Under the pieces are notes generated by a model. It was not told the origin of the DNA, did not search any database, and saw only the letters and a program-made list of their open reading frames with translations. Positions 148 through 5,350 of a stretch of DNA of 64,000 bases are shown piece by piece. The position numbers were made by a program, and so were the translations under genes. Within the stretch, counting starts at the first letter, position 1, and every line of letters starts with the position of its first letter. This stretch comes from Hoeflea sp. (GTDB lineage: Bacteria > Pseudomonadota > Alphaproteobacteria > Rhizobiales > Rhizobiaceae). The stretch lies in the NCBI GenBank assembly GCA_019084245.1, contig JAHRFE010000028.1, forward strand, positions 248,001 through 312,000, in the 5' to 3' direction.

Positions 148-870
148 TTACGCTTCGACTTTCCGCGCCCGCACGTGCCAGCCGAAGGTCAGGAACTCGC
201 TGGAATGGCGGTTGTCCCGCGGACCGTCCTGGCGGGCCTTGCGTTTCATCACGTACCGCGCCAGCTTGAACAGCATCGAGGACACGACACCCGCTTCACG
301 TCCCAGATATTTGCGGTTCATCCCCCTGGCGCGGACCAGTTCCTGCGCCATGAAATCGAAGTAACCGCCATTGGGCTCAAGCTCTTCAATCTCGAAGCCG
401 GCAGCAGGGAGATGGTGGCGATAGAAATACTCGCTGAACCCGGTGGCAAAATGATAGGGCGCAAAATGCGTGGCGGAAATGAAGGGGGCTGTCACGATGA
501 GATGTCCGCCATCGGCCACAAGCCGGGTCAGCTTCTTGAGGCTCGCGACCGGATCGGGCACGTGTTCGAGAACCTCGGTGCACAGGACGATGTCGTATTT
601 CACGTCCTCCGGAATATCGAGGATGTCGCAGACGACATCGATCTGGGAAAAATCCCATTCCCCCATGTGCAGGCCGCGTTGATTGCCGCCTCCGTCATAT
701 TCCGCGACGTCCTGCGCGGTGTAGCGCAGATGCTGGCAGAAGGGCTTGTACTGGCATTCGCCCGCGCCGACATCGAGAATTGTCAGGTTGTCGGCAAAGG
801 ACTTGAGCTGGTTTTCAAGCCATGCCCGTCGCGCCTCTTCGTTGTTCGGTTCTTTCATCTGCGGATCCAT
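148..870 (-). CDS. Class I SAM-dependent methyltransferase (glycan locus)
   Basis: A 240-residue Rossmann-fold methyltransferase of the Methyltransf_11 type. Motif I is ILDVGAGECQYKPF (about residues 32-45), the acidic residue after the next strand lies in AQDVAEYDG, and the post-motif strand VLCTEVLEHVPDP (about 95-107) is typical of small-molecule or glycan methyltransferases. Its place between a GT2 gene and the GT6-GT11 gene suggests methylation of a sugar in the surface polysaccharide, though the substrate is not visible. An 84-bp gap separates it from the upstream gene and contains a short inverted repeat. The start has no strong Shine-Dalgarno sequence; a second ATG lies four codons in. 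Confidence 0.85.
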   Translation of the reverse strand: MDPQMKEPNNEEARRAWLENQLKSFADNLTILDVGAGECQYKPFCQHLRYTAQDVAEYDGGGNQRGLHMGEWDFSQIDVVCDILDIPEDVKYDIVLCTEVLEHVPDPVASLKKLTRLVADGGHLIVTAPFISATHFAPYHFATGFSEYFYRHHLPAAGFEIEELEPNGGYFDFMAQELVRARGMNRKYLGREAGVVSSMLFKLARYVMKRKARQDGPRDNRHSSEFLTFGWHVRARKVEA

Positions 871-954: not shown

Positions 955-2547
955 CTAGGTGTTTTCAATTCTCCGCCAAGTGTCCGGCGTGATGTAATCG
1001 TTCGACAGGCCCGGATCCAGATACCAGGTCTTCGGGCCGATGACGATCTTGTCCGGCGACGGGTTGAGCCAGGCGCCCCACCAGGAGAAGGTGGAATTGG
1101 CGATGATATTGTGCCGGCAGGCCGCCATCAGCCGCAAGTCCTCATAGGGCACGTCCGGCCCGTTGATGGCCACGACAATCATTTCGCCCGGCAGATCCAG
1201 ATTGGCCTCGGCCCATTCCGGATCGTCGGAAAAGACAAAGAACCTCGGCGTCCCTTCCACTGCGTCCAGGATCGATTGCGCCGCCTTGGCGTAATAGTCC
1301 TTTCCGCAGACGGCGTAAATTCCACGGGTCGTCTCGCTGGTGAGATAATCGCCGCGGCGGACATGCACCGACACCGAGAGGCACGCTTCAATCCGCGCCT
1401 TCATCTCAAGGTTTTCAGCACTTGGCGGCGTCGCCACCGTCAGATCCTCGCGGATCTGCCGGGCTGTGTCCGAAAAATAGCGCTCGGACTGCCAGTAGCC
1501 CCTGAGTTCCGATCCCCGCTTCGCCCGCAGGACGCGCGGATCAAACTGGTTGCGCGATTCGCGGATGAACCGCCCGTCGAGCTTGGCGAGGGTGCGCCAG
1601 GCCAGCCGCTTGAACTTTCGCTCGCGGGGCGGGCAAAGCTCCTTGGGGCCGCCGACCCGGGCGTCGATGTTGAAATGACCCAGTTCATAGGGATGGCCCA
1701 TCTTCTCGAGCGAGCGCGTGTCAAGCACCACCTTGGCGCCTGAGCGCAGCGCCGCCGCTCGCGCGGTCGCATACTGGAACATCTGATTGCCCATGCGGCC
1801 CAGCAGTTCGATCACGATGGTGTCCTCGGGCGCGCGCCAGCGCCGTGTCTTGCGCATGGCCAGCGCGCCGCCGAACTTGGCCTTGTCGCGGATCAGGATT
1901 TTCTGCCGGAACGGCAGCGGCCAGCCCTCGGGGAAGCAATAGCCCGGATCGAGCAGCTTGTGGGGATGATCTAGAATGTAGCGGTTGAGATGGGACTCGT
2001 CGTGCCAGAGGGCCATGATTCCGGCCTTCTTGTCCGCCTCGACGGCCTGGCGCATTGTCTCGATGAAGGCCAGGTAGGTGTCGCGCGGCCCGCCATTGAC
2101 GCCGCCGGCCACATAGTGCTTGCCTTCGCCTGCCGGGACAAAGGCCCTTGAGCGGGGGCTGCGTTCATAGGGCAGTTCGGCAACGGCCCGTTCGTAATGG
2201 CCGGGATGGCGCACAACGAGAATTTCACCGGGGCCTGCCAGAATCTCCTCGCCAATGCGATCGACGATCTGGCAATTGGCGTTGAAGAAGAAGACATGGT
2301 CGAACTCGGCGAGCTGGGCGCGGACCTTTGTGAACACGGTGAACCGGTCGAGCGTGTTGCCCGGCCAGCCGAGATTGTCCTGGTGAACAATGACGGCGCC
2401 ACGGTACTCCCGGTCAAGCGGCGCATCGGTGAAGACGAAGTAGGTCTTGTCATGGCCGGGCAGGAAGTGCCTTTCGCTGGATGCGTGGAAGCCTTCGAAA
2501 AAGACCCGGTAGCTCCCGGTGCAGATGTAGAGAATGGCGATCTTCAC
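955..2547 (-). CDS. Two-domain glycosyltransferase: GT6 (ABO-type) fused to GT11 (alpha-1,2-fucosyltransferase)
   Basis: This 530-residue protein carries two transferase domains. Residues about 1-230 match family GT6, the family of the human A/B blood-group transferases: FFFNANC at 86-92 has NAN in place of the animal DxD, as in known bacterial GT6 enzymes; RHPGHY (113-118), PYERSPRSRAF and ALWHDESHLNRY (179-190) are GT6 signatures. Residues about 241-530 match GT11: GRMGNQMFQYA (250-260), HVRRGDY (395-401, the GDP-fucose binding motif) and NSTFSWWGAWL (484-494). GT11 makes Fuc-alpha-1,2-Gal (the H determinant), the usual acceptor of A/B GT6 enzymes, so one polypeptide could build an A- or B-like epitope. 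The GTG start at 2547 overlaps the previous stop as GTGA; an open frame continues upstream to 2898 but only antisense-like sequence lies there. Donor of the GT6 half (UDP-Gal or UDP-GalNAc) is not decidable. Confidence 0.9.
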   Translation of the reverse strand: MKIAILYICTGSYRVFFEGFHASSERHFLPGHDKTYFVFTDAPLDREYRGAVIVHQDNLGWPGNTLDRFTVFTKVRAQLAEFDHVFFFNANCQIVDRIGEEILAGPGEILVVRHPGHYERAVAELPYERSPRSRAFVPAGEGKHYVAGGVNGGPRDTYLAFIETMRQAVEADKKAGIMALWHDESHLNRYILDHPHKLLDPGYCFPEGWPLPFRQKILIRDKAKFGGALAMRKTRRWRAPEDTIVIELLGRMGNQMFQYATARAAALRSGAKVVLDTRSLEKMGHPYELGHFNIDARVGGPKELCPPRERKFKRLAWRTLAKLDGRFIRESRNQFDPRVLRAKRGSELRGYWQSERYFSDTARQIREDLTVATPPSAENLEMKARIEACLSVSVHVRRGDYLTSETTRGIYAVCGKDYYAKAAQSILDAVEGTPRFFVFSDDPEWAEANLDLPGEMIVVAINGPDVPYEDLRLMAACRHNIIANSTFSWWGAWLNPSPDKIVIGPKTWYLDPGLSNDYITPDTWRRIENT

Positions 2548-3407
2548 GAATTGCCTGCCTTTCCGGCGGCCACGAAGCGAACGCCATCGATCTCGACCGG
2601 CACCTTGCGAAAACGCCTGCGGGTCAGGGTATTGGTCAGCAGCCGCTGCGCCACGCTGCCAAGCTTGCGCAGCGGTTCGAGCACCCGGCGCTCGAAACCC
2701 CTGGGCTTGGCCGACCGGCCGCCCTCTGGATGATACAGGCGCGGCGCAGCGTTGACGACGCTTTCGACGCCCGAATGCCTGTCGCTCGCGGTCACCAGAT
2801 AGTCCTGGACGCAGATCGCCGGCTCCAGCTGCCAGATCGACAGATGTCCGGCGATGCCGAGCCTGGGATTGAACATCAGCTGATCCACCGGGTCGCATGC
2901 AGCCGATGTCAGATTGAGCAGCTTCTGCGCGCCGCGGCGCGAGACAAAATAGCCGGCGGTCCCGCCATGGGCGGAGAGAAGCCGGAACAGGCCATGGCCG
3001 AAGGCCGAGGCGGCCGGCCGCTTGTCCATCAGCACGCGCTGAAACACCGTTTCGGCCTTGACTAGGTCCGCGTCCCCGGGCAGCCAGTCCGAAGACTGCA
3101 GGAACTCGGCGGCGTTGCTGGCGAAATGGATGTCATCCTCGCAGACGAAGGCCCAGTCCTGCGCTTGCGCCACGACCATTTCCCACAGGCGCACATGGCT
3201 CAGGAAACAGCCGATCTCGCCATAGCCCACGCCATATTCGCCCGATGTGCGCGGCCCCATCGCGGCGACGAGATCCTCCGGCAAGGCGCGGCCGTCGACG
3301 GCGGCGACGCGGACCGGTTCGATGCCGACACGGGCACATTCGGCGCGAAAACTCGCGTTCCGCTCGGGCGAGCGGTCAAGATTGATGTAGTAGCAGGGAA
3401 TCGTCAT
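2544..3407 (-). CDS. Glycosyltransferase family 25 (LPS-type beta-galactosyltransferase family)
   Basis: A 287-residue GT25 protein. The N-terminus CYYINLDRSPERNASF, the VAAVDGRAL segment and GEIGCFLSHVRLW followed by WAFVCEDDIHF (acidic metal-site motif EDD) are the defining GT25 blocks. Members transfer galactose or glucose during LPS core or capsule assembly on the cytoplasmic side of the inner membrane. It sits downstream of galE, which would supply UDP-galactose, and its stop overlaps the GTG of the GT6-GT11 gene. A second GT25 protein (4580-5350) shares the motifs but is otherwise divergent. The ATG is preceded by two direct copies of an 11-bp segment that contains AGGA. Confidence 0.88.
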   Translation of the reverse strand: MTIPCYYINLDRSPERNASFRAECARVGIEPVRVAAVDGRALPEDLVAAMGPRTSGEYGVGYGEIGCFLSHVRLWEMVVAQAQDWAFVCEDDIHFASNAAEFLQSSDWLPGDADLVKAETVFQRVLMDKRPAASAFGHGLFRLLSAHGGTAGYFVSRRGAQKLLNLTSAACDPVDQLMFNPRLGIAGHLSIWQLEPAICVQDYLVTASDRHSGVESVVNAAPRLYHPEGGRSAKPRGFERRVLEPLRKLGSVAQRLLTNTLTRRRFRKVPVEIDGVRFVAAGKAGNS

Positions 3408-3578: not shown

Positions 3579-4583
3579 TCAGCCGTCCGGCTGGCCACCG
3601 GTCCGGTTGCCCAGTCTGCGTTCCCATTCAAGCGCATGGCGGATGATGGTTTCGAGATCGTCAAGTTCCGGCATCCATCCGAAGGCTTCGCGCGCAAATG
3701 TCGAATCGGCCACGATCATGGCGGCGTCGCCGGCCCGGCGCGGGGCCTGCGTCACCCTGAAATCCACGCCGGACACGGCCTTGACGGCGTCGACCACCTG
3801 GCGGACGGAATAGCCGCTGCCATAGCCGCAATTGGCCGCGACCGAGGGGCCGCCGGCCCTCAGATAGGCGAGCGCGCAATAATGCGCGTTGGCAAGATCG
3901 GTGACGTGGATGTAGTCGCGCACGCAGGTGCCGTCCGGCGTGTCGAAATCATCGCCGAAGATCTGCAGCCCGTCGCGTTTTCCCGTGGCGGCTTCGGCGG
4001 CGATCTTGATGAGGTGGGTCGACTGGCGCGAGGACTGGCCGGCGCGCATCTTCGGATCGGCGCCCGCGACGTTGAAATAGCGCAAGGCGGCGTAGCGAAA
4101 GCCGGGATTGACCGCCGCCACGTCGCGCAGCATCCATTCGGTCATCAGCTTGGAGGTTCCGTAGGGCGATTCGGGGGCAAAGGGCGCCGATTCCGTCACC
4201 GGTTCGAGCCCCGGCGCGCCGTAGACAGCGGCCGAGGAGGAGAAGATGAAGCTCTCCACCTTCGCGTCGAGTGCGCGCTGGATCAGGACCCGCGATTTGC
4301 AGGTGTTCTCGGAATAGTAATCCAGCGGCGCCTCCACCGATTCTGACACGATGATCAGCCCGGCAAAGTGAATGATGGCATCGATCGCGTGAGTGGCGAA
4401 GATGGCGTCGAGCGCATCGGCGTCGGCAATGTCGGCCTTGTAGAACCTGGCCTGCCCCGGCACCGCCCATTCATTGCCGGTCGACAGATTGTCGACGACC
4501 ACCACATCCTCGCCCTGCTCCAGAAGCGTGAGGACCATGTGGCTGCCGATGTAACCGGCGCCGCCGGTGACAAGCACGCTCAT
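3579..4583 (-). CDS. galE: UDP-glucose 4-epimerase
   Basis: A 334-residue extended SDR. It starts MSVLVTGGAGYIGSHM, the NAD-binding GxxGxxG motif; it has the catalytic SSSAAVYG serine block, the YGTSK Tyr-Lys pair and the GalE-specific YFNVAGADP segment. It interconverts UDP-glucose and UDP-galactose (and perhaps the GlcNAc pair) in the cytoplasm. It lies between two GT25 genes and its ATG overlaps the stop of the upstream GT25 as ATGA, so it most likely supplies UDP-Gal to this glycan locus; in rhizobia the same enzyme (exoB) also serves exopolysaccharide and LPS synthesis. Confidence 0.95.
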   Translation of the reverse strand: MSVLVTGGAGYIGSHMVLTLLEQGEDVVVVDNLSTGNEWAVPGQARFYKADIADADALDAIFATHAIDAIIHFAGLIIVSESVEAPLDYYSENTCKSRVLIQRALDAKVESFIFSSSAAVYGAPGLEPVTESAPFAPESPYGTSKLMTEWMLRDVAAVNPGFRYAALRYFNVAGADPKMRAGQSSRQSTHLIKIAAEAATGKRDGLQIFGDDFDTPDGTCVRDYIHVTDLANAHYCALAYLRAGGPSVAANCGYGSGYSVRQVVDAVKAVSGVDFRVTQAPRRAGDAAMIVADSTFAREAFGWMPELDDLETIIRHALEWERRLGNRTGGQPDG

Positions 4584-5350
4584 CGGTCAACTCCGCCCGG
4601 TGCGACCGGCCTGTTGGACCGGGCGCGGATGCGGCTGCGATAGAGGAACCGCCTGATCTCGCGGACGAGCGTTTTCGACATTGTTTTCCCGGTCTTGACA
4701 GAAATCGTGCTGCCGCCCGCCTCGACGGTCCGGTCGCTCAGTCCCGATGGCACGGCGCAGCTCAGGGGAACGCCGGTGACCCAGCTCATCTGCAACAGCG
4801 TGTCGACCGGACGGTCAAAGCGCTCGGTGATCTCCAGCAGATGGCAGGCATGGGCCGCGCTGACGAGTTGGCCAGAGGTGCGCAGCATTCCCACCCGCGG
4901 CCGCACAATGCTCGCTCCGTCGCGGCTTGCCAGCGTTTCCGCCCCGCCCTTCACCGGCCGGACCTGGAACTGGATGTAGCCAGCCCGATCGATGATGTCG
5001 GCGGAAAGCTGCAGGGCCCTGGAAAAAATCTCCGGGTCGATCTCGACATCGTCCTCGATCACCAGGCCGGCCCTGAGGCCGCGATCGACGATCATCCGCC
5101 AGGCCTTGCGGTGGCTCAGGAAACAGCCGATCTCGCCGACGGTCATCTCGAAGGGATAGGGCGGCGCATGCAGGCTGCGGCGCGAGCGGACCGCATCAAT
5201 CTCCGCCTCGGACAGCGCCCGGCCATCCACCGCATCGATCACCTCGACGGGAAGCGGACAGGCGGCGCGAATGCGCTCGACCTGCGGCCGCCGCGCCTGG
5301 GCGCGGGCCAGATGGATGATGAAGGTCTGGATGTCGCCCGGTTCGTTCAT
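4580..5350 (-). CDS. Glycosyltransferase family 25
   Basis: A 256-residue GT25 protein and the first visible gene of the glycan operon. It shows FIIHLARAQARRPQVERI near the N-terminus, IDAVDGRALSEAEI, then VGEIGCFLSHRKAWRMIV and LVIEDDVEIDPEI, the same ordered blocks as the second GT25 (2544-3407). Its C-terminus is basic (RRFLYRSRIRARSNRP), as in other GT25 proteins. It probably transfers a hexose to a lipid-linked or LPS-core acceptor. Four bases overlap with galE imply translational coupling. The 136 bp between it and the LpoA-like gene hold no gene that I can see. Confidence 0.87.
   Translation of the reverse strand: MNEPGDIQTFIIHLARAQARRPQVERIRAACPLPVEVIDAVDGRALSEAEIDAVRSRRSLHAPPYPFEMTVGEIGCFLSHRKAWRMIVDRGLRAGLVIEDDVEIDPEIFSRALQLSADIIDRAGYIQFQVRPVKGGAETLASRDGASIVRPRVGMLRTSGQLVSAAHACHLLEITERFDRPVDTLLQMSWVTGVPLSCAVPSGLSDRTVEAGGSTISVKTGKTMSKTLVREIRRFLYRSRIRARSNRPVAPGGVDR

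Follow-up and report, generated by a model that had tools for sequence, protein, structure and literature searches.

The human fucosyltransferases FUT1/FUT2 and the ABO transferases are Golgi-bound. As described in the available part of PMC4202792, they belong to families GT11 and GT6, respectively, and have the same family activities, in the same order, as the protein reported here, but they are separate proteins, and the ABO enzymes carry a DxD motif and bind Mn. Escherichia coli O86 takes the same two steps to a blood-group-like epitope with the GT6 enzyme WbnI and the fucosyltransferase WbwK, which that part of the source describes as separate enzymes and not as one chain; WbnI is B-like and uses Gal (PMC4202792), whereas GalNAc is our guess for the present protein. 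Another described relative is BoGT6a of Bacteroides ovatus (PDB 4ayj/4cj8), with chains of 246 aa and without a GT11 half, which the accessible text of PMC3961637 describes as transferring GalNAc onto 2'-fucosyllactose in a metal-independent manner and as having R73, N95 and E192 among the residues that matter. Both domains and the order of the pathway were already known; what is added here is the fusion in one chain, its occurrence in a second phylum and its cassette. A search of open-licence papers found no published GT6–GT11 fusion, in keeping with the first-pass annotation of this DNA, which knew of none.

The fusion lies in a 64,000-nucleotide stretch of a Hoeflea sp. genome (the window, meaning the whole stretch analysed). 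A full-length, collinear GT6::GT11 protein is encoded in the Planctomycetota MAG KLAP7 (L113:8001-9632); the two align over 531 columns at 43% identity (48% and 40% in the two halves), with five gaps, none of them at the linker, which has the same length in both.

A GT6 and a GT11 domain in one reading frame

The gene had been placed at 955-2547 with its strand unstated; the coordinates stand, and the strand is minus. The minus-strand ORF is a single uninterrupted frame of 530 codons, and a plus-strand reading of the same interval meets three stops in that frame. The gene has the following parts.

955..2547, minus strand: GT6::GT11 fusion gene, 530 aa, one open frame with a GTG start at 2547 and a stop at 955-957
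1867..2547, minus strand: GT6 domain of the NAN type, residues 1-227, from Pfam, BoGT6a alignment and fold match, with NAN at 89-91, R68, E184 and the donor triad A147-G148-G149
1837..1866, minus strand: linker, residues 228-237, pLDDT below 50 (AlphaFold)
958..1836, minus strand: GT11 fucosyltransferase domain, residues 238-530, from Pfam and the motifs GRMGNQMFQYA, HVRRGDY and NSTFSWWGAW
1813..1815, minus strand: candidate internal start, codon 245 GTG, at the usual GT11 start place, with GAGGA upstream at ribosome-binding distance

Profile searches assign both halves to the families first proposed for them: PF03414 matches residues 8-212 (E 3.9e-32, 111.7 bits, cut-off 25) and PF01531 matches residues 349-524 (E 4.9e-32, 111.8 bits, cut-off 23.9; profile positions 127-294 of 298). 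With both scores far above the cut-offs and a collinear homologue known, the claim that GT6 and GT11 are joined in one protein is borne out, and the fusion pattern is, judged on sequence, far beyond chance. NCBIfam names the GT6 half only (NF041524, 'family 6 glucosyltransferase', 270.9 bits, cut-off 250).

In the GT6 half, the bacterial NAN that replaces DxD, a motif already pointed out in the first reading, is present at residues 89-91. An alignment with BoGT6a sets R68, N89, N91 and E184 opposite R73, N95, N97 and E192 of that enzyme; the catalytic Glu, the donor-binding Arg and the bacterial NxN are all present, and a WHDES motif spans residues 181-185. Counted on this alignment, the donor triad A-G-G at 147-149 corresponds to A-G-G at 155-157 of BoGT6a. 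In the register of the human numbering, this triad would fall at 266-268. Gly at the 268 place is, by this reading of the sequence, the A-type state: in the part of PMC4202792 available, the residues that distinguish the human A and B enzymes include Leu266/Gly268 (A) and Met266/Ala268 (B). GalNAc (A-like) appears the more likely donor of the GT6 half than Gal (B-like).

The GT11 half retains HVRRGDY (395-401) and NSTFSWWGAW (484-493), both of which the first-pass annotation had named, while its first motif reads GRMGNQ and not GGLGNQ; the conserved set of the family is GGLGNQ, HxRRGDY and NSxFSWW, which is also seen in the aligned rows.

AlphaFold, supplied with a 69-row alignment, returned a mean pLDDT of 93.7 and a pTM of 0.67, with 462 of the 530 residues at 90 or above. 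We read the model as a pair of rigid enzymes joined by a flexible tether of about ten residues, without a fixed relative position. The top Foldseek match was BoGT6a (4ayj_A; target TM-score 0.94, 1.2 Å, 231 columns, 44% identity), which shares with the GT6 half its fold, NAN in place of DxD, the catalytic residues and the A-G-G triad; the human ABO transferases rank after it, and all 50 of the 50 matches listed are GT6 structures. The GT11 half has a confident predicted model, yet no GT11 structure is among these 50 matches, and a PDB sequence search with this half gave no GT11 relative and one chance match.

The altered first motif would fit a protein of which one half only is catalytic in this strain, and codon 245 bears on the related idea that the fusion matters little, given a free GT11 from an internal start. 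Such a free GT11 may be made alongside the full-length protein, and the case that the tether matters would then be weaker: codon 245 is a GTG with GAGGA upstream, and the planctomycete fusion has an ATG at the matching codon 246. That ATG, however, is without an SD-like stretch, and because such a stretch precedes 3 of the 22 in-frame start-like codons of the fusion gene, the GAGGA at codon 245 is possibly due to chance. We judge either variant unlikely, since the GT6 half keeps its catalytic residues and the GT11 half two of its motifs, both domains have a pLDDT above 90 almost throughout, and the halves are collinear with those of the planctomycete fusion.

An assembly or sequencing error that joined two genes was rejected as very improbable. 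Such an error would be in line with the in-frame GTG at the GT11 start and with separate adjacent genes being commoner elsewhere, but a collinear fusion with the same linker length occurs in another genome, the frame has no stop, and GC3 is 0.60-0.93 in each 30-codon block, both halves and the junction included. The frameshift between two genes that had been raised as a possibility is likewise not seen: the frame is open across the junction, and GC3 is high there.

The locus and its relatives

In the order of transcription, the neighbourhood consists of GT25b (5350-4580), galE (4583-3579), GT25a (3407-2544), the fusion, a methyltransferase (870-148) and a GT2 gene running off the left end of the window; the fusion's GTG start overlaps the stop of GT25a by four bases (GTGA). 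A weak GT10 match, gmd and fcl lie on the opposite strand, 4.8-7.9 kb from the fusion, with gmd (TIGR01472, 566.7 bits, cut-off 415) and fcl (NF047922, 519.1 bits, cut-off 500) at 4.8-6.8 kb.

4580..5350, minus strand: GT25b, by Pfam; 49-69% in four genus-mates and 39% in the planctomycete cassette
3579..4583, minus strand: galE, UDP-glucose 4-epimerase (TIGR01179, 431.3 bits, cut-off 262.3)
2544..3407, minus strand: GT25a, by Pfam; 4-base overlap with the fusion, 44% to the planctomycete-cassette gene
148..870, minus strand: SAM-dependent methyltransferase downstream of the fusion, by Pfam; 51% to the planctomycete-cassette gene
G000:C40:241083-242168 (= L195:11083-12168), plus strand relative to the window: weak GT10 fucosyltransferase match (27.2 bits, cut-off 23.9) beside gmd and fcl

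Because gmd and fcl are there, the genes for GDP-fucose are present at the locus, and galE can, by its family assignment, provide UDP-Gal. GT25 enzymes are LOS galactosyltransferases, and Pfam names the family 'LPS biosynthesis protein'; this suggests that the GT25 enzymes of the locus may lay down the acceptor galactose. Separately, the weak GT10 match beside gmd and fcl may point to a second fucose on the glycan.

The same cassette is present in a second phylum. The planctomycete fusion is flanked by counterparts of GT25b, the methyltransferase and GT25a, at the identities given above and in an order that differs from that of the window; the 16.7 kb around it held no match to galE, gmd, fcl or GT10, and a full gmd (579 bits) lies elsewhere in that genome. 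GC is 0.49-0.55 at the L113 contig vs 0.57-0.70 around the window's locus; it is possible that this contig is mis-binned. Among the 80 bacterial GT6 loci listed in the survey below, a GT25 profile matched L113 and L167 only, although other kinds of GT25 could escape a profile that was built from the same loci that it matched (the window, L113 and L167). L167, from Rhizobiales, carries GT25, GT11, methyltransferase and GT6 as separate genes.

Within its own family, the fusion stands out by its GT6 half. A whole-protein search of 394 family genomes matched 25, and outside the window's genome every family match listed starts no earlier than residue 204, which places it in the GT11 half; the related GT11s of the family are without a GT6 half. 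PF03414 scores above its cut-off, the window's genome counted, in 3 of 397 genomes of the order, 1 of 385 of the class and 1 of 398 of the phylum, the last set with two further weak matches below the cut-off. The two other genomes of the order with GT6 (L193, L194) show no GT11 within the approximately 1.5 kb read around GT6, which we count against a two-step reading of the pair. For GT11 in Rhizobium, the open-licence literature yielded no paper, and one unrelated fungal paper only.

Of seven genus-mates in the 394-genome set, four have a GT11 match and three have no match. We read 19 kb in each of the four (G258, G374, G046, G139). All have GT25b (identities as listed above), GT11 (44-46%), gmd (92-93%) and fcl (39-82%), three have GT10, and G258 only has a close galE (77%); GT6 and the fusion's methyltransferase had no match at E 1e-8 in these 19 kb, and the GT25a query matched the GT25b gene only. 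With gmd nearly identical and the middle strongly divergent, the locus appears to be a polymorphic one for surface glycans, of which the window's strain has a different allele. In three of the four, an FkbM-type methyltransferase gene lies directly upstream of GT11 (L197:7874-8665, L198:9926-10741, L199:8330-9121); it occupies the place of the GT6 half and may O-methylate the sugar instead of capping it.

GT6 and GT11 together in bacteria and viruses

A scan of bacterial contigs for GT6 only confirmed at least 171 loci, and the counts given here rest on the 80 listed, scored with in-house GT6 and GT11 profiles trained on the same loci. At least two have both domains in one ORF (2/80, L113 and L159), which supplies the dual-domain homologues that were sought and shows the pair of domains in a single chain in at least two lineages, collinear in the window and L113 and reversed in L159. 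L159 (L159:3774-5363), from a Gastranaerophilales MAG, resembles the fusion in having both families in one frame, both over the cut-off, and differs in having GT11 first and GT6 second and degraded GT11 motifs (HIRKGDR, NDLKSWW); it lies near a contig end and is possibly, from its motifs, a GT6 enzyme whose fucosyltransferase half is decaying.

Besides the 2 fused loci, 30 of the 80 have a GT11 within 400 bp of GT6, 23 within 2 kb and 8 further away, while 17, some of them cut by contig ends, have none in the flank read. Adjacent separate genes are thus the commoner arrangement among the loci listed. Altogether, 55 of the 80 have a GT11 within 2 kb, fused ones included; 53 of these are unfused, 4 of them on the opposite strand. 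Among the 63 loci listed that have 2 kb on both sides, 46 have a GT11 within 2 kb, and the density of GT11 falls from 0.183 per kb within 2 kb of GT6 to 0.013 per kb beyond. The first reading had called a capping domain in front unusual, a view that these loci do not support: where the two are fused or within 400 bp, the order is GT6 to GT11 in 16 cases, GT11 to GT6 on the same strand in 14 and on opposite strands in 2, the linker is flexible, and the order is reversed in one fused ORF.

On viral contigs, the scan with GT6 only gave a GT11 within 2 kb at 39 of the 80 loci listed (467 confirmed), with 0 fused; a separate scan, queried with the whole fusion and hence favouring loci that carry both halves, held no fusion among its 20 GT6 loci. 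Of 104 matching phage records, 52 align with 80% or more of the fusion at a single place, and those annotated among the 30 listed of the 104 show separate genes. In marine cyanophages, GT6 and GT11 genes are often adjacent (phage records H10-H39; viral loci L033-L112). The 22 viral GT6 rows from the whole-fusion scan comprise 14 with D-x-D (DSD, DAD, DVD), 1 with NAN and 7 outside the pattern; because D-x-D is kept in 14/22, many viral GT6 enzymes are probably metal-dependent. Two viral contigs (L039 and L040, 5001-6427) have tandem GT6 stretches.

As to taxonomic range, many bacterial GT6 loci belong to Bacillota (Lachnospiraceae, Gemmiger, Selenomonas, Paenibacillus: L115, L120, L134, L136-L139, L145-L149, L157 and others) and two to Nomurabacteria (L125 and L133). 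Among the loci listed, this range is wider than that given in 2014 in the part of PMC3961637 available, which describes bacterial GT6 as Gram-negative with one exception.

Origin and proposed function

Among 92 GT11 domains in a quick tree, the window and L113 belong to a starred 19-row clade of which the other 17 rows are from the window's own family, and a careful tree of 31 rows recovers the same starred clade with support 96/92. A quick tree built on 106 GT6 domains pairs the window and L113 as sisters (support 89, unstarred). The simplest reading of these sequences would be that a GT6 arrived and fused once with a GT11 from the window's family, the cassette then passing between phyla. In the free tree, the GT11 halves of the window and L113 stand apart, although uniting them in one clade was not rejected (p-AU 0.271); two separate GT6-first fusions, one in each, may instead have occurred. 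That both halves are foreign to the window's lineage is less likely, since the GT11 half nests with the GT11s of the window's family (19 rows, 96/92) and GT6 is nearly absent around it.

The first-pass annotation had reasoned that the product of GT11 is the substrate of GT6, and this logic gains support from the co-location of the two families, the genes of the locus (galE, two GT25, gmd, fcl and a weak GT10) and the dual-domain homologues. Sequential action on one glycan is our best reading, because the substrate of BoGT6a is of the type made by an alpha-1,2 GT11, GDP-fucose genes lie at the locus, and the pair recurs across phyla. We think it rather probable that the fusion is a bifunctional transferase that would add alpha-1,2-fucose and then alpha-1,3-GalNAc onto a lipooligosaccharide-type glycan. 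In our model, the GT11 half would transfer L-fucose from GDP-fucose, probably in alpha-1,2 linkage, onto a terminal galactose that a GT25 enzyme of the same operon would have laid down. The GT6 half would recognise the fucosylated galactose and add an alpha-1,3 sugar without metal, and the tether would hold both active sites on one acceptor, allowing the H-type intermediate to be capped before leaving. The protein would carry out the last steps in building a fucosylated glycan of the cell surface, most likely lipooligosaccharide.

A bifunctional enzyme could also make a product that is not an ABO determinant, with another fucose linkage or acceptor and with GT6 capping by Gal, GalNAc or Glc. 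Alpha-1,2 specificity is not universal in GT11, which includes the alpha-1,3-fucosyltransferase HhFT2 (PMC4202792, in the part available), the GT11 half groups with family GT11s that have no assigned specificity, and the GT6 subfamily is named a glucosyltransferase in NCBIfam. We nevertheless find this alternative rather doubtful, given that BoGT6a, which matches the GT6 half in catalytic residues and in the donor triad, acts on Fuc-alpha-1,2-Gal (accessible text of PMC3961637) and that the GT6–GT11 pairing recurs across several phyla. Returning to the ABO-type product, we tentatively propose, as a fuller model that may well not hold in all its parts, that the protein could be a self-contained, single-chain A-antigen synthase that would convert a beta-galactoside all the way to an A-like blood-group epitope, channelling the H intermediate between its two tethered active sites, and that would travel between phyla as a cassette (GT25, GT6::GT11, methyltransferase, GT25), taking the place of a simple fucosyltransferase at a polymorphic locus for surface glycans.

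A naturally occurring fusion offers 'Rosetta stone' evidence for the consecutive action of GT6 and GT11 on a single bacterial glycan, and the survey indicates that the pairing of the two is widespread in bacteria. If active, the protein would be a one-chain, metal-independent enzyme for A-type glycans, and it would bring blood-group-like epitopes to a lineage that is otherwise poor in GT6, which bears on why bacteria make such epitopes; the comparison of the locus within one genus makes this question testable by allele.
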